From the NCBI RefSeq assembly GCF_030815145.1, contig NZ_JAUSWJ010000001.1, forward strand, positions 2,046,001 through 2,110,000: a stretch of DNA of 64,000 nt. The letters run 5' to 3'. Made by a program: the position numbers and the translations under genes. This stretch comes from Kaistia geumhonensis. GTDB lineage: Bacteria; Pseudomonadota; Alphaproteobacteria; Rhizobiales; Kaistiaceae. Below the pieces are notes generated by a model that was given only the letters and a program-made list of their open reading frames with translations, ran no database searches and was not told the origin of the DNA. Below, piece after piece: positions 2,505 to 39,071 of the stretch. Every line of letters starts with the position of its first letter. Within the stretch, counting starts at the first letter, position 1.

Positions 2505-2978
2505 GTGGACGCTACCGATTTGCCTTCCGGACTGCTGACGCTGATCAAGGATGCCAACCGGCAGGTCGTGCTTGCCGCCGGCGGCCCGGCCGTGGTGCAG
2601 GCGCTCACCGGGCTTTCGGCGGGCTCGATCTCGCGCATCCAGGGCGACGCCTATCCCGATCTCTTCCCGGTCTGGGCGATCGCGCTGATCGAGTTCAAGA
2701 CGCAGAAGCCGATCTTCGGCCGGCTGTTCGCGACGCTCACGCAGCATCAACTGGCGCCGATCGGCGAGGGCGAAGAGGCGGGCGGCCATCTGGTCGTCGA
2801 CCTGGTCGACTTCACCGTGCAGGCGGCGCGCGTCTCTTCCTCCCTCGGCTCGGCGCTCGCCGACAACATCGTGACGCCGAAGGAAGCGAAGGCGACGCTC
2901 GCCGAATTCGGCGCGCTGGAGCGGCAAATCGACCGCGCCAAGGGCAAGCTTGCCCCAATCGCCAGCGGCCGCAAATGA
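2505..2978 (+). CDS. Putative phage regulatory protein (CII-like position)
   Basis: A 157-residue protein (DATDLPSGLLTLIKDANRQV...) with a probable helix-turn-helix around AVVQALTGLSAGSISRIQGD. GTG at 2505 is chosen because a very good ribosome-binding site, GAGGTGAT, lies four bases upstream; the upstream GTG at 2496 overlaps that site. The middle (YPDLFPVWAIALIEFKTQKP) and the helical C-terminus suggest an oligomeric regulator similar in layout to phage CII/CP76-type proteins, but this is a guess. It opens a run of genes that overlap each other by four bases to 8634. Confidence 0.6.
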   Translation: MDATDLPSGLLTLIKDANRQVVLAAGGPAVVQALTGLSAGSISRIQGDAYPDLFPVWAIALIEFKTQKPIFGRLFATLTQHQLAPIGEGEEAGGHLVVDLVDFTVQAARVSSSLGSALADNIVTPKEAKATLAEFGALERQIDRAKGKLAPIASGRK

Positions 2979-3226
2979 CCATCACGCGGCTCACCTTCCA
3001 GCGGAACGGCCGGCGCATCAGCGTCACCGTACTGACGCCCGACCGGGCGCGGCGGCGGCGGATCGCTCGCGCCATGCTCGCCGCCGGATGGCCGCATGCC
3101 CGCATCGCCGCGGCGCTGCGCATTCGTCGCGAACGGCTCGAAGCCCTGCTTGCCGAGCCCTCGCTCTTCGATCCCGCAACCCTGAAAGAGGCCGCGCGCT
3201 TCGTGCGCCGGATGGTGGCCGCATGA
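2975..3226 (+). CDS. Small basic hypothetical protein (83 aa)
   Basis: The ATG at 2975 overlaps the TGA of the gene before, and its own TGA overlaps the next ATG. The product is strongly basic (DRARRRRIARAMLAAGWPHA) and contains a likely helix-turn-helix in the segment WPHARIAAALRIRRERLEAL, so DNA binding is plausible. No named family is recognised. It may regulate or assist the DNA modification and replication genes with which it is translationally coupled. Confidence 0.6.
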   Translation: MTITRLTFQRNGRRISVTVLTPDRARRRRIARAMLAAGWPHARIAAALRIRRERLEALLAEPSLFDPATLKEAARFVRRMVAA

Positions 3227-5826
3227 GCGCCGATAGCAAGGGCGGCGCCTATCGCGCGTTTCTCGAGGCGAAGATCAAGATGGCCCCGCTGCGCGGCCTG
3301 CCGATCGCGGCCGAGAGCGTCAACCCGGCACTGAAGCCGCATTGCCGCGCCATCGTGCCCTGGCTGGTCAAGGGCGGGCGGCGGGCGCTGTTCGCCGCCT
3401 TCGGGCTGCACAAGACGGCGATGCAGCTGGAGACGCTGCGGCAGATCCTTGGCCAGTTTCCCGGCGAGGCAGCGCTGATCGTGCTGCCGCTCGGCGTCAG
3501 GCAGGAATTCATCCGCGAGGCGCGCGAGCGCTTCACCGGCGCCTGTGAAGTCCGGGTGAAATTCATCCGCTCGGCGGCGGAGATCGAGCCCGGCGTGATC
3601 CATCTCACCAATTACGAGACGGTGCGCGACGGCAAGCTCGACCCGGCCCTCTTCACCGCCGCCTCGCTCGACGAGGCCTCGGTGCTGCGCGGCTTCGGCG
3701 GGACCAAGACCTTCCGCGAGTTCATGCGCCTCTTCGACAAGGTGCGCTTCCGCTTCGTCGCCACGGCGACGCCCTCGCCCAACGAATTCATCGAGCTGCT
3801 TTCCTATGCCGCCTTTCTCGGCGTCATGGATGTCGGCGAGGCGAAGACGCGCTTCTTCCGGCGCGACAGCGAGCATGCCGACCAGCTGACGCTGCATCCG
3901 CACAAGGAACAGGAGTTCTGGCTGTGGGTGGCGAGCTGGGCGCTCTTCATCACCAAGCCGTCCGATCTCGGCTTTTCCGACGAGGGCTATGAGCTGCCGG
4001 CGCTCGACCTTCGCTGGCATGAGATCGGCTCCGACCACGCCGCCGCCGGCGAGGAGAAGGACGGGCAAGGGCGGCTCCTGAAGGACAGCGCACGCGGTCT
4101 CGTCGAGGCGGCGCGCGAGAAGCGCGACAGCCTGCCCCGGCGCATCGAGCGGCTGCAGGCGATCCGCGCCGAGGACCCGGCCGCGCACCGTATCATCTGG
4201 CACGACCTCGAGGCCGAGCGGCAAGCCATCGAGAAGGCGATCCCGACCGCGCTCGCCGTCTGGGGCTCACAGGATCTCGACGAGCGCGAGCAGCGGATCA
4301 TCGACTTCTCGGACGGCAGGTTCGCCGAGCTGGCGGCGAAGCCCGTCATTGCCGGCTCGGGCTGCAACTTCCAGCGCCACTGCGCGCAGGCCGTCTTTCT
4401 CGGCATCGGCTTCAAGTTCAACGACTTCATCCAGGCCGTGCACCGCATCCAACGCTTCGGGCAGAGCCGGCCCGTCCGCATCGATCTCATCTACACCGAG
4501 GCCGAGCGCGAGGTGCGCCGCAGCCTCGAAGACAAATGGGCGCGCCACAAGGAGCTCGGCGAGAAGATGACCGCGATCATGCGCGACTATGGGCTGTCGC
4601 ACGCCGCCTTCGCCGAGACTCTGACGCGCTCTCTGGGCGTCGAGCGGGTCGTCTCGACGGGCGAGAACTACACGCTCGTCAACAATGACTGCGTCGAGGA
4701 GACGGCGCGGATGGGAACCGACAGCGTCGACCTCATCGTCACGTCGATCCCCTTCTCGACGCAGTATGAATACACGCCCTCCTACAATGATTTCGGGCAC
4801 ACCGACGACAACGACCATTTCTGGGCGCAGATGGACTTCCTGACGCCGGAGCTTCTGCGCGTGCTGAAGCCCGGCCGCTGCGCCGTCATCCATGTCAAGG
4901 ACCGGATCGTGCCGGGGGGCCTTTCGGGCCTCGGCTTCCAGACGGTCTACCCCTTCTCCGACGCGACGATCGCGCATTTCCAGAAGCACGGCTTCGCCTT
5001 CCTGTCGCGGATCACCAACGTCACCGACGTGGTGCGGGAGAACGCGCAGACCTATCGGCTCGGCTGGAGCGAGCAATGCAAGGACGGGTCGCGCATGGGC
5101 AACGGCATGCCCGAATATGTGCTGACCTTCCGCAAGCCGCCGACCGACCGCAGCAACGGCTATGCCGACGCGCCGGTGAAGAAGACGAAGCGGATGGCCG
5201 ACAAGGGCGGCTGGAGCGGCGAGGGCTATAGCCGCGCGCGCTGGCAACTCGACGCCGCCGGCTTCTGGCGCTCCTCCGGCGACCGGCTGCTCGAGCCGGG
5301 CGCGCTGGTCGGCCTCGACGCCAAGATCGCCTATCGCATGTGGAAGCGCTTCAACCTCCAGGCGGTCTACGACCTCGAGCATCACATCGCCATCGCCGAA
5401 GCGCGCGAGCTGGTCGGGCAGCTGCCGCCCGATTTCGCGCTGCTGCCCGTCCATTCCTGGCATGAGGAGGTCTGGACCGATGTCGCGCAGATGCGCTCGC
5501 TCAACACGATGCAGGCCGGCAAGGGCGCCGAGAAGCATCTCTGCCCCCTGCCCTTCGACATCGTCAACCGCGCCATCCTGCAGCGCTCCGAGCCCGGCGA
5601 AACCGTGCTCGACCCGTTCGGCGGGCTGATGACGACGCCCTATTGCGCCGTGAAGCTCGGCCGCAAGGGCATCGGAATCGAGCTCAACCCGCGCTACTTC
5701 CTCGACGGCTGCCGGTGGGTGGAAGCCGCCGCGCGCGAGATCGCCGTGCCGACGCTGTTCGACCTGCTCGGCGCCGAGGCCTCGGCCGAGGGCGACGAGG
5801 GCGGGATCGCGGAGGCAGCGGAGTGA
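3223..5826 (+). CDS. Helicase-like / DNA methylase fusion protein
   Basis: One 867-residue chain joins two enzymes. Residues 1-480 follow the SNF2 helicase plan: FAAFGLHKTAMQ (60-68) stands at Walker A but lacks the usual GKT/S, LDEAS (149-153) replaces DEAH, and FIQAVHRIQRFGQ is the typical motif VI. Residues 485-860 are a DNA N4/N6-amino methylase: TSIPFS (507-512) corresponds to the catalytic (D/N/S)PP(Y/F) motif, and DPFGG (797-801) followed by GIGIELNPRY is the S-adenosylmethionine site. Similar fusions are known in alphaproteobacterial prophages. The ATPase half may be inactive as a motor. Likely role: methylation of phage DNA. Both ends overlap neighbours by four bases. Confidence 0.85.
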   Translation: MSADSKGGAYRAFLEAKIKMAPLRGLPIAAESVNPALKPHCRAIVPWLVKGGRRALFAAFGLHKTAMQLETLRQILGQFPGEAALIVLPLGVRQEFIREARERFTGACEVRVKFIRSAAEIEPGVIHLTNYETVRDGKLDPALFTAASLDEASVLRGFGGTKTFREFMRLFDKVRFRFVATATPSPNEFIELLSYAAFLGVMDVGEAKTRFFRRDSEHADQLTLHPHKEQEFWLWVASWALFITKPSDLGFSDEGYELPALDLRWHEIGSDHAAAGEEKDGQGRLLKDSARGLVEAAREKRDSLPRRIERLQAIRAEDPAAHRIIWHDLEAERQAIEKAIPTALAVWGSQDLDEREQRIIDFSDGRFAELAAKPVIAGSGCNFQRHCAQAVFLGIGFKFNDFIQAVHRIQRFGQSRPVRIDLIYTEAEREVRRSLEDKWARHKELGEKMTAIMRDYGLSHAAFAETLTRSLGVERVVSTGENYTLVNNDCVEETARMGTDSVDLIVTSIPFSTQYEYTPSYNDFGHTDDNDHFWAQMDFLTPELLRVLKPGRCAVIHVKDRIVPGGLSGLGFQTVYPFSDATIAHFQKHGFAFLSRITNVTDVVRENAQTYRLGWSEQCKDGSRMGNGMPEYVLTFRKPPTDRSNGYADAPVKKTKRMADKGGWSGEGYSRARWQLDAAGFWRSSGDRLLEPGALVGLDAKIAYRMWKRFNLQAVYDLEHHIAIAEARELVGQLPPDFALLPVHSWHEEVWTDVAQMRSLNTMQAGKGAEKHLCPLPFDIVNRAILQRSEPGETVLDPFGGLMTTPYCAVKLGRKGIGIELNPRYFLDGCRWVEAAAREIAVPTLFDLLGAEASAEGDEGGIAEAAE

Positions 5827-6974
5827 ATGTGGCTCTTCGTCCCCGGCCTCTCGACGTCATCAGCCTGTGCACCGGAGGCGGAGGGCTTGACCTTGCCCTC
5901 GACCTCGCCGTTCCGGGATCTCGCGCCGTCGTTGTGGTGGAGAGGGAAGCCTTCGCCGTTGCCCATCTGGTCGCGGCGATGGACGCGGGTCTCCTGGCTC
6001 CGGCGCCTGTCTGGTCGGATGTCGGCACCTTCGACGGCCGCCCCTGGCGCGGCCTCGTGGATGGCCTCATTGGCGGCATCCCGTGCCAGCCGCACAGCCT
6101 CGCCGGCCGCAAGCGCGGCAGCCTCGACGAGCGCGACCTCTGGAGCGACACGCGGCGCATCATCGCCCGCGCAAGGCCGTGGTTCGTCCTCATCGAGAAC
6201 GTCGCCGGCATGCTCGCGGCGGGGGCTGACGAAATCGCTGGAGCGGAGCGCGTATGGCGAGACCTTCGCAAGCTGGGCTTCGCGGTTGAGGCAGGACTGT
6301 TCCGCGCGTCGGAAGTCGGCGCGCCGCACGAGCGCGAGCGGCTCTTCATCCTCGGGCTGGCCGACACCGGATGCGAACCTGATGAACGATCAGGAAAAGC
6401 CGGAGAGCTTCGCGGCGCGGCAGGAGCGACAGAAGGCGAAGGGCATCAACGGCAATGGCATGGGGATGCCGCTCGCGATGGCGGCGCGGACATGGCCGAC
6501 GCCGACGACGCGGGATCACAAGGGCGGCGGGGATGCTTTGATCCGATCGGACGGCAAGATCCGCAACGACATGCTCGACTGGGTAGCGGAGAAATGGGCG
6601 ACGCCGAGGGTCGAGATTGCCCGGGCGCTCGGCAACCCGAAGCACATCACGCCGACGCGCGCAAACGGCAACCTCGAGGATCAGGTCGTGGCGGTCCCCT
6701 CTTTCCGCCTGGACCAGCAGATCACGACGGATGGCGAGGAGTCCTCGCATATTCGCCGGACCTTGAACCCGCTGTTCGTCGAATGGCTGATGGGCTGGCC
6801 GCCCGGGTGGACCTTTCTGGGCCTCACGCCGCCCGCGTCGAGCGGCTGCGCATGCTCGGTAACGGCGTTGTCCCGCTTCAGGGCGGATATGCGATCCGCG
6901 CTCTCCTCGCTCGGCACGCCGCCCGCGGCTCCGCCCGAGCAGCCGAGCTTCTTGTGAGGGAGGGCGCAGCATGA
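5823..6974 (+). CDS. DNA cytosine-5 methyltransferase
   Basis: The GTG at 5823 overlaps the previous stop; the 383-residue product has motif I (SLCTGGGGLDLAL, from residue 14), the catalytic PCQ (Cys88 in GGIPCQPHS), the ENV motif (125-127) and, at the C-terminus, RMLGNGVVPLQ, the usual motif X. Between about 6370 and 6960 a second frame (+1) also encodes sequence typical of phage methylases, such as WPTPTTRDHKGGG and NPLFVEWLMGWPPGW. The annotated frame keeps all catalytic motifs, so it is taken as the product. Together with the preceding enzyme it would let the phage modify its DNA. The target base context is unknown. Confidence 0.8.
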   Translation: MNVALRPRPLDVISLCTGGGGLDLALDLAVPGSRAVVVVEREAFAVAHLVAAMDAGLLAPAPVWSDVGTFDGRPWRGLVDGLIGGIPCQPHSLAGRKRGSLDERDLWSDTRRIIARARPWFVLIENVAGMLAAGADEIAGAERVWRDLRKLGFAVEAGLFRASEVGAPHERERLFILGLADTGCEPDERSGKAGELRGAAGATEGEGHQRQWHGDAARDGGADMADADDAGSQGRRGCFDPIGRQDPQRHARLGSGEMGDAEGRDCPGARQPEAHHADARKRQPRGSGRGGPLFPPGPADHDGWRGVLAYSPDLEPAVRRMADGLAARVDLSGPHAARVERLRMLGNGVVPLQGGYAIRALLARHAARGSARAAELLVREGAA

Positions 6975-7435
6975 CCATCGAAACCCGGCGCGACGAGATC
7001 GAGTGCTGGCCGACGCGGCAGGACTGCATCGAGCAGAATCGGCGTGCGCTGGCCGCGATGCTGAAGCATCACGGGCATATCCCGCCCGAGCGGGACTGCT
7101 CGGCCGAGGCGCTGGCGATCCGCGCGCAGCTCGGGCGATGGTCGCCGCGCTCGCGCCGCGCGCTCGCCGTTCGGCCCGATGCCGGAAGGTCGCCGGCGAT
7201 GGCCGAGGACCTCGCCGCGCTGCTCGCCGAGATCTGCGGGCGCTACCAGGTCTCCGAACGCCAGATCCGCGAGCATGGCGGCTCGACCAATGCCCGCCTC
7301 GCGCGGCAGGCGCTGTTCCATGCGGCCTATCACCAGCTCGGGATGACCAAGGCCGCCATCGGCGGCGCCTTCGACCGCTCGGCGCAATCGGTCGGCCAGA
7401 CAATCCGCTTCGTCGAGACCGGATCGTCGCGATGA
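6971..7435 (+). CDS. DnaA C-terminal-domain-like protein
   Basis: A 154-residue protein whose C-terminal 75 residues (EICGRYQVSERQIREHGG..., ARLARQALFHAAYHQLGMTK, AAIGGAFDRSAQSV) resemble the DNA-binding domain of the replication initiator DnaA: a helix, a basic loop and the signature-like helix ahead of the Ser-Val segment. There is no AAA+ ATPase domain. It may bind a DnaA-box-like or iteron target in the phage origin, but could also be only a regulator. It lies between the methylases and the primase, with four-base overlaps on both sides. Confidence 0.65.
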   Translation: MTIETRRDEIECWPTRQDCIEQNRRALAAMLKHHGHIPPERDCSAEALAIRAQLGRWSPRSRRALAVRPDAGRSPAMAEDLAALLAEICGRYQVSERQIREHGGSTNARLARQALFHAAYHQLGMTKAAIGGAFDRSAQSVGQTIRFVETGSSR

Positions 7436-8634
7436 CCGCCCTTGCCTCGCCAGCCGTCGACGACTGGATCGACCGCGCGCGGGCCGTGCCGATCGAGGAG
7501 GTTGCCGCGCGGCTCTACGGGCTCGACTGGAAGAGCCGCGGCCACGAGATGGCATGGGCGTGTCCTGCCTGCGGCGGGCATGACCGCTTCTCGATCAACC
7601 GGCGCAAGCAGGTGTTCCATTGCCGCGCCTCCGGCGAAGGCGGCGACGTCATCGCCATGGTCCGCTATCTCGACGCCTGCGACTTCACCGCGGCCTGCGA
7701 GCGGATCACCGGCGAGGCGCGGCCGGACGGCGCCGGCGGCACGGTCGACGAGGCCGAGCAGCGGCGGCGGGCCGAGCAGCGCGCGGCCGAGCACGAGGAA
7801 CGCGAGCGCGCCGCGGCGGACTATCGCGAGGCCGAGCGGCGGCGATCATGGAAAATCTGGCAGGAGGCCGTGGCGATCCGGCCGATCGACCCGATCGGGC
7901 GTTACCTCGCCGCGCGCGGGATCGCGACCGCCGCGCTTGGCGGCGCGCGCCTCAAGATGACGCCCTCCCTCCCCTTCTATCAGCTCGACGGAAAGCGGCC
8001 GCGCGAGGTGCATAGGGGCCCGGCCATGGTCGGCGCCATCATCGGGCCGGACGGGCGGTTCCGCGGCGTCCACACGACATGGGTCGACCCGGCGACGCAT
8101 GCGAAGGCCGAGATCGCCGATCCCGAAACCGGCGAAGTGCTCTCGCCGAAGAAGGTGCGCGGCTCGGCCGGCGGCAACCATATTCCACTCTCCCGCAACC
8201 CCGTGGCCAGGCGGCTCGTCGTTGGCGAGGGGATCGAGACGGTGCTCTCGGTCAAGCATGCCTGCGCGGCCGAGATGCTGCCCGGCTGGATGGGCGAGAC
8301 GCTCTTCGTCGCCGGGATCTCGCTGGGCAATATCGGCGGGCGCGCGATGGACACGATCCCGCATCCGACCGCGACCCGCACCGACACGCTCGGCCGGGTG
8401 CGCAAGCAGCGCGTGCCGAACGACCAGCCCGACCGCGACCCGCGCTATGCGGCGCTGATGCCGCCCGACGGGGTCGAGGATGTGATCCTGCTCGGCGACG
8501 GCGACAGCGACCGCTTCACCACCGAGATGACGCTGCGCCGCGCGGCCGCGCGCTGGGCTCGGCCGGGCCGCGTGATCAAGGTCGCCTGGGCGCCGGCCGG
8601 CGGCGACTGGAACGATGTGCTGAGGGGGAAGTGA
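7432..8634 (+). CDS. Phage DNA primase (CHC2 zinc finger and Toprim)
   Basis: This 400-residue protein should lay down primers for phage replication. The zinc-binding domain has CPACGGHDRF (Cys44, Cys47, His50) and VFHCRASGEGGDVI (Cys64). A charged, likely coiled segment (115-150) follows. The Toprim catalytic residues appear as VGEGIE (Glu266) and LLGDGDSD (Asp356, Asp358). Its ATG overlaps the stop of the DnaA-like gene. The partner helicase begins 705 bases downstream, beyond a reverse-strand insertion. Confidence 0.88.
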   Translation: MTALASPAVDDWIDRARAVPIEEVAARLYGLDWKSRGHEMAWACPACGGHDRFSINRRKQVFHCRASGEGGDVIAMVRYLDACDFTAACERITGEARPDGAGGTVDEAEQRRRAEQRAAEHEERERAAADYREAERRRSWKIWQEAVAIRPIDPIGRYLAARGIATAALGGARLKMTPSLPFYQLDGKRPREVHRGPAMVGAIIGPDGRFRGVHTTWVDPATHAKAEIADPETGEVLSPKKVRGSAGGNHIPLSRNPVARRLVVGEGIETVLSVKHACAAEMLPGWMGETLFVAGISLGNIGGRAMDTIPHPTATRTDTLGRVRKQRVPNDQPDRDPRYAALMPPDGVEDVILLGDGDSDRFTTEMTLRRAAARWARPGRVIKVAWAPAGGDWNDVLRGK

Positions 8635-8643
8635 CTAATGACG

Positions 8644-9312
8644 CTAGTCCTCCGTAAGCATGACGATGTAGCTCTCCTCATCGAGCGCAACGCTGCGCGA
8701 GTAAAAGGCGTCCTCAAGCGTACCCATATCGACAAAAGGGGACGTAATCGTTCCATCTTGGAAAAGCCGCTCACGTACATTGTCCATCGCCTGGGCGATT
8801 ACAACAGCTTTCGCAGCGTATTTCTTTATGACGTCACTCGGACTTTCCCCAACGGCTGCGTTACCTATCTTGAGATTGCCGAAATCATTTCGGAAGAAAT
8901 TGAGCACGATGCCGAGGCGTCCATCGATCTCGAAAACCTCGGAGTGGTACCTGTTGATGTATTCACCAGCAACGACTGCCCTTTGGAGCGACCATACTCC
9001 GCTGTCAAGCGCGCTCGCAATAAATCTAAGGTCTACAGCGACAGCCAAGAGTATGTCGGTATTTCTCTTCAGCGCTGCGGTCCGATGAAAGCGCTCGTTA
9101 GCTTCGATTTGAGCTTGGGCGGCATCCCAAGCTCTACGAGCGGCCCAAAATGCGGCTGCTATCGCGCCTGCAGAAGTGAGTGTTGGTCCAAGTTTATCGA
9201 TCATATCGAGCGGCGCAAGCGATGGCGTGGCGACCAAGATTGTGAAGCCGCCGATCGCCGTCAGAACGAAGGTGATCGCCCAAGCGGCTTCGCCCAACCA
9301 TTCCTTTTGCAT
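8644..9312 (-). CDS. Reverse-strand membrane protein of unknown function (moron candidate)
   Basis: A 222-residue protein encoded against the direction of the replication operon, between primase and helicase. The N-terminus has two hydrophobic segments (about residues 9-30, with AWAITFVLTAIGGF, and 41-60, with LTSAGAIAAAFWAA) followed by a long helical, soluble region to the end. Base composition is clearly unlike its neighbours: two 60-base samples counted at 8881 and 9001 have 29 and 31 G+C, against 47 in a sample at 7741 in the primase. I know no family for it. An independently transcribed cargo gene expressed in the lysogen, for example a superinfection or defence factor, is the working idea. 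Confidence 0.75.
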   Translation of the reverse strand: MQKEWLGEAAWAITFVLTAIGGFTILVATPSLAPLDMIDKLGPTLTSAGAIAAAFWAARRAWDAAQAQIEANERFHRTAALKRNTDILLAVAVDLRFIASALDSGVWSLQRAVVAGEYINRYHSEVFEIDGRLGIVLNFFRNDFGNLKIGNAAVGESPSDVIKKYAAKAVVIAQAMDNVRERLFQDGTITSPFVDMGTLEDAFYSRSVALDEESYIVMLTED

Positions 9313-9338
9313 AACTTCCCCCAGTCTATCGGTGGCTC

Positions 9339-11138
9339 ATGCTAGACGATCCGCGCCGCCAAATCGCCGATGCGATCGCGCATGCCCAACCGATCGGCCC
9401 CGAACCCCCTTCCTCGGAGGGCGGCGACTTCGACGCCGGCGATGGGCCGGCGCCGTTCGGCGACTATGACGGCGACGAGAACGGGCCTTCCGACCTGCCG
9501 CCCGATGGCAGCGTCGATCCGAACCTCGTCGCCGAATGCGCCCCGCTCGACCATTCCGACACCGACAACGGGCTGCGGCTGCGCAAGCATTTCGGCCGCG
9601 ACCTCGTCGTGATGGAGCAGGCCGGCGCCAAGGTTCCGGCCTTCGTCGCCTGGACCGGGACACATTGGGACGTCGACACCGGCGGGCCGGCCGCGATGCG
9701 CATCGCGCAGAAGATCGGCGCGCTGATCGCGCTCGAGGCCGACCATCTCACCGCGACGCCCGACGAGATCAAGGCCATGCGCCGCGGCGCCGACGCCGAG
9801 GACGAGCTCGACACGCTCGAAGCAAAGGAGAGCCCGACCGACGCGGAGAAGCAGCGCATCCGCCTGTTGCGCGCACTCGTCGACGACGGCGAGGCGGCAA
9901 AGGCCGAGCTCAAGAAGCGGCAGATCGCGCGGCGGAAATTCGGCGTCTCTTCGAAGAACAAGGCGCGGCTCGAGGCCATGCTGGCCTGCGCGGCGCCGCA
10001 TATGCTCATCGAGCCCGAGGCCTTCAACGCCAATCACCTGCTCGTCGCGACGGCGGAATGCACGCTCGCCTTCGACAGGATCTCCGATCCCGAATGCCCC
10101 GATCCGGACGTGACGCGCTGGCTCGGCCGCTGCACGCCGATCCCCGGCCATCGCCGCGAGGACATGATCACGAAGGTGCTGCCGATCGTCTATGACCCGG
10201 CCGCGACCTGCCCGCGCTTCGACGCTTTCCTCGACGAATTCCAGCCGGACGCGGCGACCCGGCGCATGCTGCAGACCTGGTGCGGGCTCGGCCTGCTCGG
10301 CCTCACCAGCCAGCATATCGTCTTCCACTACGGGCTCGGCGCCAACGGCAAGAGCGTCTTCATGGAGACGATCATGCGCGTCATGGGCGACCTCGCCGTC
10401 GGCCTGCCGGCCGAATCGATCACCGGCGACGGCGCGCGCGGCGCCGGCGCGGCGAGCCCTGACCTCGCACGGCTCTATGGCGTCCGCTGCCTGCGCGTGC
10501 TCGAGCTGGCGGCCGACCAGCCGCTGCAGGAGGCGCTGGTCAAGAAGCTGACGGGCGGCGAGCGCATTCCCGTCCGAACGCTCTTCCAGGGCTATTTCGA
10601 GTTCACGCCGATTTTCACCGGGCATATGAGCGGCAACGGCTATCCGCGGATCGACGGAACGGATAACGGAATCTGGCGGCGCATGCTCGTCGTGCACTGG
10701 CCGGTGACGATCGCCGAAGAGCGACGCGAGAATTTCGAGGACGTGCTGGCGCGGTTCGCGCCGGAATATGCCGGCATCCTCAACTGGATGATCGAGGGCG
10801 CCAAGCGCTACATGGCCGAGGGTCTCGTCATCCCCGAGGCGGTGAAGCTCGCCACCAAGGAATATCGCGACGAGATGGACCCGATCGGGCTCTTCGTCGG
10901 CGATTGCGTCAGCCCGGCCGCGGGCGAGAGCGTCACGGCGCGCGAGATGTATCAGGCCTATGTCGCGTGGTCGGAGGCGAACGCCAAGAAGGCCTTCTTC
11001 GAGACGAAGTTCGGCCGCGTGATGAAGACGCGCTTCCGCCGCTCCGAGGGCAGTCCGCGCCGTTATCTCGACTGCCGCCTGCACGATGTGCCGGCCACCG
11101 CGCCCCGCAGCCCCTCGCCAGAGGATTACGAACCCTGA
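9339..11138 (+). CDS. D5-like primase/SF3 replicative helicase
   Basis: A 599-residue protein. The first 70 residues are acidic and probably disordered. Residues about 240-310 match the D5 N-terminal region of phage/plasmid primases (NHLLVATAECTLAFD...). The SF3 helicase Walker A is HYGLGANGKSVF near residues 329-340, with the downstream segment GNGYPRIDGTDNGIWRR typical of this family. A small winged-helix-like domain ends the chain. It should unwind DNA at the phage origin together with the CHC2 primase; the repeat field just after it is the best origin candidate. GGTGG precedes the ATG. Confidence 0.88.
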   Translation: MLDDPRRQIADAIAHAQPIGPEPPSSEGGDFDAGDGPAPFGDYDGDENGPSDLPPDGSVDPNLVAECAPLDHSDTDNGLRLRKHFGRDLVVMEQAGAKVPAFVAWTGTHWDVDTGGPAAMRIAQKIGALIALEADHLTATPDEIKAMRRGADAEDELDTLEAKESPTDAEKQRIRLLRALVDDGEAAKAELKKRQIARRKFGVSSKNKARLEAMLACAAPHMLIEPEAFNANHLLVATAECTLAFDRISDPECPDPDVTRWLGRCTPIPGHRREDMITKVLPIVYDPAATCPRFDAFLDEFQPDAATRRMLQTWCGLGLLGLTSQHIVFHYGLGANGKSVFMETIMRVMGDLAVGLPAESITGDGARGAGAASPDLARLYGVRCLRVLELAADQPLQEALVKKLTGGERIPVRTLFQGYFEFTPIFTGHMSGNGYPRIDGTDNGIWRRMLVVHWPVTIAEERRENFEDVLARFAPEYAGILNWMIEGAKRYMAEGLVIPEAVKLATKEYRDEMDPIGLFVGDCVSPAAGESVTAREMYQAYVAWSEANAKKAFFETKFGRVMKTRFRRSEGSPRRYLDCRLHDVPATAPRSPSPEDYEP

Positions 11139-22058: not shown

Positions 22059-22072
22059 TACAGGAGACAATG

Positions 22073-22507
22073 ATGGCGAAGCCGACCACGCTTCGGGGAT
22101 CGAAGCTGCTCGTCAAGATTGGCGATGGTGGATCGCCGGAGGTCTTCACGGCCCCCTGCGCCCTGACGACGAAGTCATTCGGCCGCTCGGCCGGAGTGAA
22201 CGAATTCAACGTCGCGGACTGCGACGACCCGGACGCGCCGATCTGGACCGAGCGTGTCAAGAGCGCGCTGTCGTCCACGATTTCTGGCTCCGGCACGCTC
22301 GCGCAGGAGAGCCTCGATCTCTACGAGGCGGCCTATTCGGACCAAGACTCGCGCAATGTCCAGGTGACGATCGACTATTCGGTCGGCCCCCGTACCTATG
22401 AGGGCAAATATCACCTGACGACCCTCAACATCACCGGCGAGCAGGACGGGCTCATCCAGGTCGAGATCGAGCTTCAGTCCGACGGCGCGGTCGGCATCGC
22501 CGCATGA
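22073..22507 (+). CDS. Major tail tube protein
   Basis: The 144-residue tube subunit. The pattern KPTTLRGSKLLVKIGDGGSP, then FNVADCDDPDAPIWTERVKS, then STISGSGTLAQESLDLYEAA is typical of the TP901-1/GTA tail tube family. Two adjacent ATGs occur; 22073 is chosen because it has the better distance to AGGAG. Its stop overlaps the ATG of the chaperone gene. Confidence 0.88.
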   Translation: MAKPTTLRGSKLLVKIGDGGSPEVFTAPCALTTKSFGRSAGVNEFNVADCDDPDAPIWTERVKSALSSTISGSGTLAQESLDLYEAAYSDQDSRNVQVTIDYSVGPRTYEGKYHLTTLNITGEQDGLIQVEIELQSDGAVGIAA

Positions 22508-22944
22508 GCCGCTCTGGGGCGATCGAGATCGCATGGAACGGCGGGACGCATTCATTCCGGCTTGCGATCCGCCAGTGGGTCGAACTTCAGGAGGAATGCG
22601 GCATCGGTCCTCCCGAGCTGCTTTCGCGGCTTGGAGGCAGCCGCTGGCGCGTCCAGGACGTGCGCCAGCCGATCCGGCTGGGGCTTGTCGGCGGCGGCAT
22701 GAAGCCGGCGGATGCCAACATCCTTGTCGCCCGCTATGTCGACGAGCGCCCGCTGATCGAGGCTGTGCCGGTCGCGCAGGCGATCGTCCTCGCGTCACTT
22801 GTCGGCGTGCCCGACGAGCCCGTGGGAAAAGAGGCGGCGGCGGGGGCCGCGACGGAGGCGGACGCGACGGACGCCTCGCCTTCGCCGCCTATTACGGATC
22901 CGGCGCCGCCATGGGGTTCACCCCCCGCGATGTCGACGACATGA
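22504..22944 (+). CDS. GTA-family tail assembly protein, upstream chaperone frame
   Basis: A 146-residue protein starting MSRSGAIEIAWNGGTHSFRL with QPIRLGLVGGGMKPADANIL and VARYVDERPL, as in gene transfer agent family tail proteins encoded between tail tube and tape measure. The C-terminus after residue 110 is alanine/proline-rich. At codons 107-109 the heptamer GGGAAAA is in slippery phase, and a -1 shift there would extend the protein into the next frame to 23060, giving 185 residues, the usual arrangement of siphovirus tail chaperones. Confidence 0.82.
   Translation: MSRSGAIEIAWNGGTHSFRLAIRQWVELQEECGIGPPELLSRLGGSRWRVQDVRQPIRLGLVGGGMKPADANILVARYVDERPLIEAVPVAQAIVLASLVGVPDEPVGKEAAAGAATEADATDASPSPPITDPAPPWGSPPAMSTT
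22824..22830 (+). promoter_or_regulatory. Candidate -1 ribosomal frameshift site
   Basis: The heptamer reads G GGA AAA in the frame of the upstream chaperone, the X XXY YYZ form. Shifting back one base continues as GGG AAA AGA into the frame that stays open through the downstream 49-residue gene to 23060. The lambda tail chaperone uses the closely related GGGAAAG. A G+C-rich stretch follows. Confidence 0.65.
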
Positions 22945-23060
22945 GCTTCTGGGAGTTCGCGGCCTGCGTCGACGGCTTCAACACCGCCAACGGCGCCGAG
23001 CCGGACGTCGAGCCGCCGACGGCCGAAGAATATCACGACATGGTGCGGAGGCTCGGCTGA
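22911..23060 (+). CDS. Tail assembly chaperone, downstream frame (GTA/TIGR02216-like)
   Basis: A 49-residue frame from ATG 22911 encodes MGFTPRDVDDMSFWEFAACV and ends EEYHDMVRRLG. This is the form of the short tail chaperones found before the tape measure in GTA-like tails. It overlaps the previous gene by 34 bases in the -1 frame. It may be made alone, or as the C-terminal part of a frameshift fusion beginning at 22504. The stop overlaps the tape measure ATG. Confidence 0.78.
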   Translation: MGFTPRDVDDMSFWEFAACVDGFNTANGAEPDVEPPTAEEYHDMVRRLG

Positions 23061-24940
23061 TGGCGACCGATCTCGAAAGGCTCGTGGTGCGCCTCGAGGC
23101 GCAGATCAAGAGCTATGAGAACGCCATGAAGAAAGCCGCTGGCATCGGCGACAAGACGGCAAAGCGGATCGAGACGCGGTTCGCAACGATGAACAAGAGG
23201 CTCGATGGCTTCGGTATTGACTTCCTCAAGGGCGTCGGGGCGGGTGCCGCCGGCGCACTCCTCGCCGGTCTCAACTTGAACGCTATCCGCGATGCGGTGC
23301 GCAGTGTCGGCGATCTCTCCGATCTCGCGGACGCCCTCGGTGTCACTGCCGAACAAATTCAGGCCCTGCGCTATGCCTCCGAGCAGGCGGGCGGATCGAC
23401 GGAGGCGCTGGACTCCGGACTCTCGAAGTTCGTCAAGAATGTCTCCGACGCCGGACGCGGAACCGGCGACCTCGCGGCGGTGCTTGAAGCCAACAATGTC
23501 GCTGTGCGGGACCAGTCCGGCAATCTGCGGTCGTCAATCGACCTCCTCGGCGCATACGCTGATCTCGTGAAAGGCGCCAGGAGCCCCCAGGACCAGCTCA
23601 ACCTGGCCGTGATGGCGTTCGGAAGGTCCGCCGGGCCCGACCTGGTTGGCCTGCTGAAACAGGGCAGCGCGGGTATCAATGATCTCGTTGCCGATGCCCG
23701 GCGCGCGGGCGTCGTGCTCGGCGACGATCTCGTTGCCGAGGCCGGAGCGCTCGACGATACCCTGACAGGGCTCGAATCGCAGCTGCGGAACACGTTCGAA
23801 GAATTCGCCGTGCGCACGGCGCCGCTGCTGATCAATGGGCTGACGGGCGTCAACGAGATGCTCCGCGAGATCTCGGACACATTGGCCGGTCTGCCGCTCA
23901 AGCAGATGGACGATTTTCTCGCAAAGGTGCAGGCGGCGGTCGCAGCTTCTGGGCGCGACTTCGGTGACTTCACAGGCCTTCGGACGTCGTCACTCGCCTT
24001 GCAGCGGCGGTTCGGCATTCAGTCGCCGGCCATGAAAGCCGAGGATGCGGCCTATGCGGCCTATGAAGCGCAGCGCAACGCGGCACGATCCGGCGCCGCT
24101 CCGGCGACCGCAGGCGCGACCTCATCGCCGCCGACGGTCGTCCCCTCCATGAGCGGCGGCTCCGGGAGTGTCAGTCGCGGATCGGGCGGACCGAACGACT
24201 ACGAGCGGGCCGTCAAGTCGATCAAGGAGCGAACGCAGGCTCTCGTCGCAGAGGCCAACGCGCAGGCATCGGCCAACCCCCTCGTGACCGACTATGGCTT
24301 TGCGGTGGAAAAGGCGCGTGCAGCGCAGGATCTGCTGACGGCCGCCATGGAAGCGGGCATCGCTATCACGCCAGAGCTGCGCCAGTCGATCGACCAGCTG
24401 GCGACCGGCTATGCCGCCGTTGTCGTCGACGCCGAAAGGCTCGCAGAGGAGCAGGGACTGATCCTGCAGCGTGCGGAAGACATGCGCGACACCATGAAGG
24501 ATGTCGCCGGCGGCTTTGCATCGGATCTTCTGCGTGGCGCGAGCGCGGCTGAGGCGCTTGCCAACGCGATCCAGAAGATCTCCGACAAGCTGCTGAACGT
24601 CGCTCTCGACGCTGTCTTCGGCGGTGGCGGCGGGTCCTCAACCGGGGTGCTCGACGGAGTTATCAAATCCCTGATCGGTCACAACGCGACCGGAACGACC
24701 AACTGGCGCGGCGGGCCGACTTGGGTCGGGGAAAAGGGCCCCGAGATCGTTGACCTGCCGCGAGGCGCCCGCGTCATCCCGAACCATGTCATCGCCAGGG
24801 ACGCGGGATCCGGGAGCGGCGGCACGACCAATGTCAGCGTCTCGATCGCGACCCCGGATTCTGGAAGCTTCCAGCGTTCGCGCGGTCAGGTCGAATCCAC
24901 CATCGCGCGGGCCGTCGCGCGCGGGCAGCGCGGGCTCTAG
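23060..24940 (+). CDS. Tail tape measure protein
   Basis: A 626-residue protein that sets tail length and lines the tube. It begins MATDLERLVVRLEAQIKSYE (a coiled coil to about residue 50), has one hydrophobic segment near 55-72 (GVGAGAAGALLAGLNL), long helical regions, a Ser/Gly-rich hinge near 355-375, a second helical block, and a C-terminal GEKGPEIVDLPRGARVIPNH motif that is common to tape measure proteins. Its modest length predicts a short tail. Confidence 0.9.
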   Translation: MATDLERLVVRLEAQIKSYENAMKKAAGIGDKTAKRIETRFATMNKRLDGFGIDFLKGVGAGAAGALLAGLNLNAIRDAVRSVGDLSDLADALGVTAEQIQALRYASEQAGGSTEALDSGLSKFVKNVSDAGRGTGDLAAVLEANNVAVRDQSGNLRSSIDLLGAYADLVKGARSPQDQLNLAVMAFGRSAGPDLVGLLKQGSAGINDLVADARRAGVVLGDDLVAEAGALDDTLTGLESQLRNTFEEFAVRTAPLLINGLTGVNEMLREISDTLAGLPLKQMDDFLAKVQAAVAASGRDFGDFTGLRTSSLALQRRFGIQSPAMKAEDAAYAAYEAQRNAARSGAAPATAGATSSPPTVVPSMSGGSGSVSRGSGGPNDYERAVKSIKERTQALVAEANAQASANPLVTDYGFAVEKARAAQDLLTAAMEAGIAITPELRQSIDQLATGYAAVVVDAERLAEEQGLILQRAEDMRDTMKDVAGGFASDLLRGASAAEALANAIQKISDKLLNVALDAVFGGGGGSSTGVLDGVIKSLIGHNATGTTNWRGGPTWVGEKGPEIVDLPRGARVIPNHVIARDAGSGSGGTTNVSVSIATPDSGSFQRSRGQVESTIARAVARGQRGL

Positions 24941-37278: not shown

Positions 37279-38538
37279 ATGCAAAGGCAGCGCGGTCACC
37301 ACATTTCGGAGGCGCAGCGCGCCGCGGTCGAGGCCATCCTGCGGCAGGGCAAGCATGCCTCCGACGCCGCGCGCGAGACCGGCGTGGGCGCCCGGACCTG
37401 CGAGCGCATCCGCCGCGAGCTGCTCGGCAAGGCGGCCAGGAAGCCGAACGGGCTCGGCGGCTCGGCGGCCGATCGCGAGATCGTGCGGCTGCGCGACGAG
37501 GTCGCGAGCCTCAAGCGCGCGCTCACCGAATCGCACCGCGAGACGCTGAGCGAGGATGCGATCAAGATCCTGCTCGGCCGCGTCGCCGCAGCGCCGGCCG
37601 ATCCGCCCGACTGGATGGCCGATCCGCCGGCGCGCACCATGACGGGCCGCACGCCGGAGGTCCCGTCCGTCATCTGGTCGGACTGGCATCTCGGCGAGGT
37701 CGTTTCCTCCGCCGAGACGAACGGGCTCAACGCCTATGACCCGGCCATCGCCGACGCGCGCGTGAAGCGGCTCGTGACGGCGACGATCCATCTCTGCCGC
37801 AAGCACGGGCCGGGCGCCTATCCCGGCGCCGTCGTCAACCTGCTCGGCGACTTCGTCTCCGGCGGCCTGCATCCCGAGCTGGCGAAGACGGACGAATTCG
37901 AGCAGATCCCGGCCGCGTTGCGCGCCCGCGACCTGCTCATCTGGTCGCTCGACCGGATGATCGAGACCTTCGGCCGGCTCTATGTGCCCTGCACCTCGGG
38001 CAATCATGGCCGCTCGACGCCGAAGCCGGAGCACAAGCGCTACGTCTTCAAGAATTTCGACTGGCTGATCTACCAGCTGCTCGCCCGCCACTATGAGGGC
38101 CGCAGCGACATCGTCTTCGACATCCCCGAGAGCAACGAGGTGCATTACCGGGTCTATGGCCTGCGCTTCCTCGCGATGCATGGCGACATGCTCGGCGTCA
38201 AAGGCGGCGACGGCATCATCGGCTCGATCGGCCCGATCATGCGCGGCGAGGTGAAGACGCGCGGCCAGGCGACCTCGAGCGGCCGCGACTATGACGTGCT
38301 CCTGATGGGGCACTGGCATCAGCCGCTCTGGCTGCCGCGCGCGATCGTCGCCAACAGCCTCAAGGGCTTCGACGAGTACGCGAAGAACGCCCTGCGCGCG
38401 CCGCCGAGCGAGCCCTCGCAGCCGCTCTTCTTCGTCCATCCGCGCCGCGGCATCACCAGCCGCTGGGATGTGAAGGTCGAGGAACCGGCCGGGCCGGCCG
38501 TGGCCGACTGGGTCAGCTGGAGGAGCGCGGCGGCATGA
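37279..38538 (+). CDS. HTH-containing metallophosphoesterase
   Basis: A 419-residue protein. The N-terminal 60 residues form a helix-turn-helix of the transposase/Sigma-70 region 4 type (SEAQRAAVEAILRQGKHASD, VGARTCERIRRELLG), then a charged linker, then a metallophosphoesterase with SDWHLGE (Asp135, His137), LGDFVSGG, SGNHGR and MGHWHQP, the five metal-binding blocks in order. AAGGAGC precedes the ATG. It may be a sequence-directed nuclease or phosphatase; such proteins occur at the right end of several alphaproteobacterial prophages. Confidence 0.82.
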   Translation: MQRQRGHHISEAQRAAVEAILRQGKHASDAARETGVGARTCERIRRELLGKAARKPNGLGGSAADREIVRLRDEVASLKRALTESHRETLSEDAIKILLGRVAAAPADPPDWMADPPARTMTGRTPEVPSVIWSDWHLGEVVSSAETNGLNAYDPAIADARVKRLVTATIHLCRKHGPGAYPGAVVNLLGDFVSGGLHPELAKTDEFEQIPAALRARDLLIWSLDRMIETFGRLYVPCTSGNHGRSTPKPEHKRYVFKNFDWLIYQLLARHYEGRSDIVFDIPESNEVHYRVYGLRFLAMHGDMLGVKGGDGIIGSIGPIMRGEVKTRGQATSSGRDYDVLLMGHWHQPLWLPRAIVANSLKGFDEYAKNALRAPPSEPSQPLFFVHPRRGITSRWDVKVEEPAGPAVADWVSWRSAAA

Positions 38539-39071
38539 GCATGAACCTCGTCGCATTCACCGGCCTCGCCGGCTCCGGCAAGACGACGGCCGCCCTGCAC
38601 CTGGTCGAGCGTCACGGCTTCGTGCGAACCCGCTTCGCCGATCCGCTCAAGGCGATGCTGCGCGCGATCGGCCTTGGAGTCGAGGAGATCGACGGAACGC
38701 TGAAGGAACGGCCGAGCCCCTTCCTCTGCGGCCGCACGCCGCGCCATGCGATGCAGACGCTCGGCACCGAATGGGGGCGGCAGTGCATCGCGCAGGATCT
38801 CTGGACAACTCTCTGGTCGGCTCGCGCCGGCGACTGCCTCGACCTCGGCGGCCGCGTCGTCGTGGACGACTGTCGCTTCCCCGACGAGGCCGATGTCGTG
38901 CGGCGCATGGGCGGGCTCGTCGTGCGTCTCAGCGGACGCGGCGGCATCGCCGGGACTCACGCCTCGGAGGCCCAGGCCTTCGACGCCGATGTCGAGCTCG
39001 GCAATGCCGGATCGCTCGAGGAGCTGCATGCCTGGCTCGACCAGATCATCGGGCCACCGCGGTTGGACTAA
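38535..39071 (+). CDS. Deoxynucleoside monophosphate kinase-like protein
   Basis: A 178-residue P-loop kinase: GLAGSGKTT (residues 10-18) is the Walker A, FADPLKAMLRAIGL and RHAMQTLGTEWGRQ follow, and VVVDDCRFPDEADVV stands for the LID/Walker B side, the layout of phage dNMP kinases (T4 gene 1-like, PF21448 type). It would raise precursor levels for phage DNA synthesis, possibly for modified bases. Its ATG overlaps the previous stop. Confidence 0.82.
   Translation: MSMNLVAFTGLAGSGKTTAALHLVERHGFVRTRFADPLKAMLRAIGLGVEEIDGTLKERPSPFLCGRTPRHAMQTLGTEWGRQCIAQDLWTTLWSARAGDCLDLGGRVVVDDCRFPDEADVVRRMGGLVVRLSGRGGIAGTHASEAQAFDADVELGNAGSLEELHAWLDQIIGPPRLD

Follow-up and report, generated by a model that had tools for sequence, protein, structure and literature searches.

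The short tail assembly chaperone gene at 22504-22944 and the open -1 frame that continues from it to 23060 most probably form a frameshift tail assembly chaperone gene of the lambda G/GT type, encoding a short form and a 185-residue fusion, a reading to which we assign a probability of about 0.93. All positions refer to the window, i.e., the whole 64,000-nt stretch of Kaistia geumhonensis DNA that was analysed, and all features described in it are on the plus strand. What the sequence itself provides is the identity and position of the gene, the frame, the heptamer and a predicted stem-loop, as well as the conservation of these features. Frame, heptamer, stem-loop, conserved residues early in the -1 frame and natural in-frame fusions in relatives all support the original prediction of a -1 frameshift that would yield a fusion resembling lambda GT, about as firmly as sequence data can.

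Gene order, slippery heptamer and reading frames

The chaperone ORF (146 aa) is located between the gene of the major tail protein (Phage_tail_2; 22070-22507; PF06199, E 6e-21) and that of the tape measure protein (23060-24940; phrog_8892, E 5.1e-57), the ATG of which overlaps the -1-frame stop. This is the place of the lambda G/GT pair and, as in that pair, the downstream part occupies the -1 frame, which is open from the slip site onward. The heptamer GGGAAAA at 22824-22830 had been predicted to be in the slippery phase of the upstream frame; read directly, the codons of ORF 22504-22944 at the site are GTG GGA AAA GAG, and the heptamer indeed reads G GGA AAA. The -1 frame, claimed to be open past the heptamer, runs to a TGA at 23058-23060 and would add 76 residues and a stop (22830-23060) upon a shift. 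Together with the 109 codons upstream, this count reproduces the 185 residues announced for the predicted product.

As a word, GGGAAAA is neither rare nor enriched in the window (2 copies in 64 kb vs. 2.8 expected), and it is phase, place and conservation rather than the word itself that stand above chance at 22824-22830. Strong heptamers, defined as [GGG/AAA]AAA[A/G] or GGGGGA[A/G], were found in phase at none of the 5348 codon positions of 16 other, hand-chosen ORFs of the window. Both codons of the slip site are rare (GGA, 43 of 510 Gly codons; AAA, 26 of 192 Lys codons).

That slippage occurs, how often it does and what the two products do are what we infer from these features. Most ribosomes would read 22504-22944 and produce an abundant short chaperone, while a minority would slip back one base at GGA AAA (22824-22830), tRNA-Gly re-pairing with GGG and tRNA-Lys with AAA, helped by the stem-loop starting at 22836. 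Slipped ribosomes would then continue in the -1 frame to 23060, giving the 185-residue fusion that ends in a TAC_6-like domain. Judging from lambda, the short form may coat the tape measure protein and the fusion may recruit the major tail protein, both forms leaving before the virion is complete.

The upstream chaperone and the downstream domain

The upstream ORF belongs to the Phage_TAC_11 (GTA-gp10) family (PF11836, E 9.8e-25, 86.9 bits against a gathering cut-off of 27.8) and matches phrog_8985 (E 9.8e-39). This protein carries a "tail tube" label in PHROGs and in 5 of the 10 phage records examined. A tail tube subunit is expected to be a beta sandwich. In the AlphaFold2 model, residues 1-109 form a beta hairpin and five helices (mean pLDDT 90.5), a predicted fold that differs from that expectation. 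Among predicted viral structures, the four matches with E <= 0.001 are one tail assembly chaperone, one uncharacterized RcapNL protein and two nameless proteins; among weaker matches both names, chaperone and tail tube, occur. A sequence search of the PDB returned no match, and a fold search of the PDB none with E <= 0.001.

The conserved, T-like downstream domain (22875-23057) matches phrog_18467 (E 5.4e-18). The window's own copy has no Pfam match and thus stays below the gathering cut-off of PF09550 (Phage_TAC_6). PF09550 is nonetheless the family matched most often by relatives of the domain, weakly and in 6 of 32 (best E 0.0029), and the family profile aligns with that of canonical GTA TAC_6 over 44 columns (hhalign 90.5%, E 1.4e-6). 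Based on these profile comparisons, we regard the domain as related to Phage_TAC_6 and do not assign it as a member. In the records of phages AP-16-3, NV1.1.1 and ppBeUSDA76-1 (L008, L010 and L012) the downstream domain lacks a CDS of its own, and other phage records among those examined name the upstream protein a tail tube protein.

Conservation of the heptamer in related loci

Conservation was examined in two sets of loci. The first comprises 57 loci with the upstream domain, window included and two copies of the window's own locus excluded, drawn from ten of eleven tblastn-matched phage records (the remaining one being another record of phage 16-3), from a search of the family (4 of 28 genomes) and from a search of the order (44 of 397 genomes, 47 places). 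Under a profile whose building had used nine sequences of the 39 two-domain loci, the downstream domain is absent from the other 18; inspection by eye shows another gene following in many of these, and at L058 a canonical TAC_6-like ORF is present. In the 39 two-domain loci, window included, the domain lies in the -1 frame 37 times, in frame 0 as one ORF twice and never in +1. The two natural in-frame fusions (L004, from phage RHph_X2_26, and L029) both lack an in-phase heptamer. A strong in-phase heptamer occurs in the overlap of 34 of the 37 -1-frame loci, a count that includes three near-identical phages (L008-L010), vs. 3.6 expected from shuffling the codons of each overlap. Strong heptamers in these overlaps fall 40 times in the slippery phase and 5 times in the other two phases together. 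The three exceptions have GGGGGGA in phase (L019), GGGAAAT in phase (L031) and none (L038).

The second set results from an IMG/VR scan with a 10-row alignment, from which the best 80 of 517 confirmed loci were taken and 79 used, the window's own contig being excluded; it partly overlaps the first set, L191 and L017 giving the same domain. Within these best 80 of 517, the downstream domain is present at 78 of the 79 loci, the remaining contig ending before it, and lies in the -1 frame in 77 of 78. The sole +1 locus (L213, IMG/VR 3300022226_000028) adjoins a long A-run, where a -2 shift or transcriptional slippage is possible. After removal of loci more than 90% alike, 46 of 52 non-redundant -1 loci from the same best 80 have a strong in-phase heptamer, vs. 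4.4 expected, and 48 of 52 have an XXXYYYZ or GGGGGAR of any kind in phase; L218, L220, L224 and L231 yielded no in-phase heptamer of the scanned classes. In this selection 56 heptamers are in phase and 24 are not, many of those 24 lying in A-runs. The original prediction had named a lack of conservation of the heptamer among homologues as a result that would speak against it. Since an in-phase heptamer is kept in both sets, in the proportions given above, that outcome is excluded.

When both sets are pooled (the second again from the best 80 of 517), heptamers from a widened list are present at 84 of 89 loci: GGGAAAA (29), GGGGGAG (24), AAAAAAA (17), GGGGGAA (8) and others (6).

A predicted stem-loop behind the heptamer

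A stem-loop is predicted at 22836-22889, 5 nt 3' of the heptamer. For the stretch 22831-22915 the folding z is -2.36, a value equalled or bettered by 3 of 200 shuffles. Over 34 loci, 50-nt windows compared with dinucleotide shuffles give a mean z 3' of the heptamer of -1.84 at offset 0, -1.62 at offset 5, -0.62 at offset 9 and -0.34 at offset 12, while more distant offsets range from +0.12 to -0.11 (-130 to -70) and from -0.07 to -0.43 (+30 to +150). The signal thus peaks directly after the heptamer.

Alternative explanations

The two parts could instead be made as separate proteins, the second starting at ATG 22911-22913, the first -1-frame start codon past the heptamer, or by reinitiation at the ATGA of 22941-22944, where a -1-frame ATG overlaps the 0-frame stop and would open a 39-aa product; the heptamer would then be incidental. 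The existence of this overlap in the window is in keeping with such an arrangement, as are the 25 of the 84 heptamer loci (window included) in which a start codon touches or overlaps the 0-frame stop, the GTGA used by the host's own GTA-type pair, and the separate CDSs of phage records, for which this is the assumption made by annotation. Yet both ATGs lie inside the conserved domain, and 79 of the 84 heptamer loci have no ATG, GTG or TTG between the heptamer and the start of that domain. When the -1 frame is used in tblastn, alignments to 10 phage records begin at residue 16 or 18, ahead of ATG 22911, which is residue 28, and Y7 and G10, also upstream of this ATG, are at least 90% conserved in the 32 rows of the alignment. 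Given these observations, the in-phase conservation of the heptamer far above expectation in both sets and the existence of natural in-frame fusions, an independent downstream start was rejected as the main route, and two separate proteins appear improbable. A short separate product is possible, because a stop-adjoining start is present in those 25 loci and all but 8 of 84 have some later start that would leave 25 residues. A far-upstream -1-frame ATG (22533) was also considered as the expression start and rejected, as in 29 of the 84 loci fewer than 60 nt separate the opening of the -1 frame from the heptamer that follows.

The probability of the remaining explanations is lower still. The frame might change in transcription, the polymerase slipping on an A-run to give a mixed mRNA pool, as the AAAAAAA of 17 of the 84 relatives and the longer A-run of L213, with its domain in +1, could indicate. 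The window has only four A, the GGGGGAR relatives (32 of 84) have no A-run, and a stem-loop spacing of about 5 nt suits ribosomal slippage, and we rejected transcriptional slippage as the main route on these grounds; it seems very improbable. That the heptamer arose by chance in a spurious open frame has in its favour that the word GGGAAAA is not enriched and that the GC-rich window contains many spurious open frames. This too was rejected and would be very surprising, as in-phase conservation is about tenfold above the codon-shuffle expectation in two sets and the 16 other ORFs hold no strong in-phase heptamer. Ribosomal frameshifting at 22824-22830 is the preferred reading.

Nature of the element

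Proteins with N6_N4_Mtase, Toprim/DnaG zinc ribbon and D5_N domains are encoded upstream of the tail genes, and a gene identical to the upstream chaperone gene is present in an IMG/VR viral contig of 46,092 bases. Based on these replication-type genes and this viral contig, the element is read as a prophage; a gene transfer agent (GTA) would be a tail-head cluster without phage replication genes, which is not what was found. A close-protein scan of viral contigs returned the window's own gene only, and a near-DNA search returned nothing. Phage-type genes are located at 2950-11138 and 38535-39071, coding for a DNA methylase, a Toprim/DnaG-zinc-ribbon protein, a D5_N protein and a deoxynucleotide monophosphate kinase.

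Comparison with known systems

The slippery site of lambda is GGGAAAG. The window's pair resembles gpG/gpGT of lambda in its location between the major tail and tape measure genes, its short ORF with a -1 extension and an XXXYYYZ site conserved in relatives, but differs in its TAC_11 family with a TAC_6-like extension, its long overlap past the heptamer and its strong GC-rich stem-loop. The lambda chaperone pair operates through -1 shifting at a low level, and the proportion of short to long product is crucial for tail assembly (PMC5009743); conserved frameshift chaperones of dsDNA phages were described by Xu, Hendrix and Duda in 2004 (via PMC5009743). GGGGGAA is the "fivetwo" site of SEA-PHAGES (actinophage) chaperones, explained by G:U pairing (PRFect, PMC10885494); GGGGGA[A/G] occurs in phase at the same place in 32 of the 84 relatives, the window itself having GGGAAAA. 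In alphaproteobacterial phages, chaperone frameshifting has already been reported: phiCbK-like Caulobacter phages have a chaperone pair with AAAAAAC or GGGAAAC slippery sites (PMC3556154), the likeness to the window's pair being one of slippery sites, and in a collection of Rhodobacter capsulatus phages RcZahn, unlike most, is described as lacking the frameshift that is usual for the chaperone (PMC8601537). For a Wolbachia element, a hydrolase with a possible +1 shift is reported (PMC10299305).

The original prediction noted that the two parts are usually treated as separate genes in GTAs, which agrees with the descriptions of RcGTA, where g10 and g10.5 are tail chaperones 1 and 2 (PMC11409702) and g10.1 is a short gene (PMC9765227). 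The upstream part of the window's pair is TAC_11, like that of RcGTA, and its downstream part is related by profile to TAC_6; unlike it, the RcGTA pair is described in the literature as two genes (PMC11409702, PMC9765227). Virion mass spectrometry of vB_MseS-P1 lists counterparts of g3-9, g11-13 and g15 and not of g10 (PMC11409702), as would be expected of a chaperone.

In a literature search covering titles and the beginnings of abstracts, no tail chaperone frameshift was reported in a GTA among the matches listed, which is no proof of absence as most subscription papers were outside reach; a term search of the RcGTA structure paper did not return the word "frameshift" (PMC7296036). The mechanism is classical. 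As far as the literature was searched, its use in this tail type and the split of GTA-type loci between frameshift and stop-start overlap appear to be new. The predicted fusion, said in the original prediction to be new for this tail type, is the rule for this branch of GTA-type tails and not a peculiarity of this locus. Should GTA-type tails use frameshifting, these phages and many GTA-type clusters would be misannotated in a specific way: the second chaperone would be truncated, absent or given an internal Met as its start, while the upstream chaperone is often named tail tube.

GTA-type loci and the host's own pair

The host genome encodes a second pair, canonical TAC_11 and TAC_6, at C1:1241689-1242179 on the minus strand (L059, L080). 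The GTG with which its TAC_6 begins overlaps the preceding stop (GTGA), and no in-phase heptamer was found in the last 90 nt. One genome thus combines a heptamer-bearing prophage pair with a GTA-type pair joined by a stop-start overlap, a contrast bearing on how the chaperone ratio is set after tail domestication.

Across the class, TAC_6 was found in 30 of 240 genomes; roughly 22 of the 30 loci fall in the -1 frame, with an XXXYYYZ or GGGGGAR of some kind in phase at 14 of the 22, both counts being approximate as the automatic choice of upstream ORF was wrong for several other loci. We further analysed the best 80 of 558 confirmed named canonical g10 loci, R. capsulatus not among them, which may include clusters other than domesticated GTAs. 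TAC_6 is present at 79 of these 80, in the -1 (74), +1 (4) or 0 (1) frame. An in-phase heptamer, of the permissive XXXYYYZ class, occurs in 32 of 37 loci without a start ahead of the FPW motif vs. 12 of 42 with one (Fisher p 2.7e-7, which overstates independence, the loci being related). Restricted to -1 loci of the same best 80, the counts are 32 of 37 without a start (8.6 expected) and 11 of 37 with a start (5.8 expected), the former group having 49 heptamers in phase and 3 out of phase.

The commonest heptamers in this selection are CCCTTTC at the PFPW codons, GGGAAAG, AAACCCT and CCCTTTG. CCCTTTC lies in phase exactly at the PFPW codons of TAC_6, with no earlier start, in 13 loci (L110, L111, L113, L115, L117, L118, L121, L123, L126, L128, L130, L164 and L173). 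Stem-loop signals are weak for CCCTTTC (n = 13; mean z -0.98 to -1.10 at offsets 0-9, -0.81 at -100) and for GGGAAAG (n = 6; -0.41 to -0.91 at offsets 0-9, -0.96 at -100), and at many GTA-type loci the stop that closely follows FPW coincides with or adjoins an ATG or GTG. Our somewhat favoured interpretation is that chaperone -1 frameshifting is ancestral in GTA-type tails and still operates, at these four heptamers, in many alphaproteobacterial GTAs described as having two genes, and that elsewhere, e.g., in the host's GTA-type pair, it has been replaced by an ATGA or GTGA stop-start overlap, changing how the chaperone ratio is set.

At L143, L149, L162 and L180 and in the phage contigs L271 and L272, an in-phase AAACCCT directly precedes a TGA stop. 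As this combination also creates a TTG start overlapping the stop, frameshift and reinitiation are indistinguishable at such loci. Finally, RcapNL_00016 of Rhodobacter phage RcapNL (L270, 10354-10926), a 190-aa hypothetical protein, appears by eye to be a third natural in-frame chaperone fusion.
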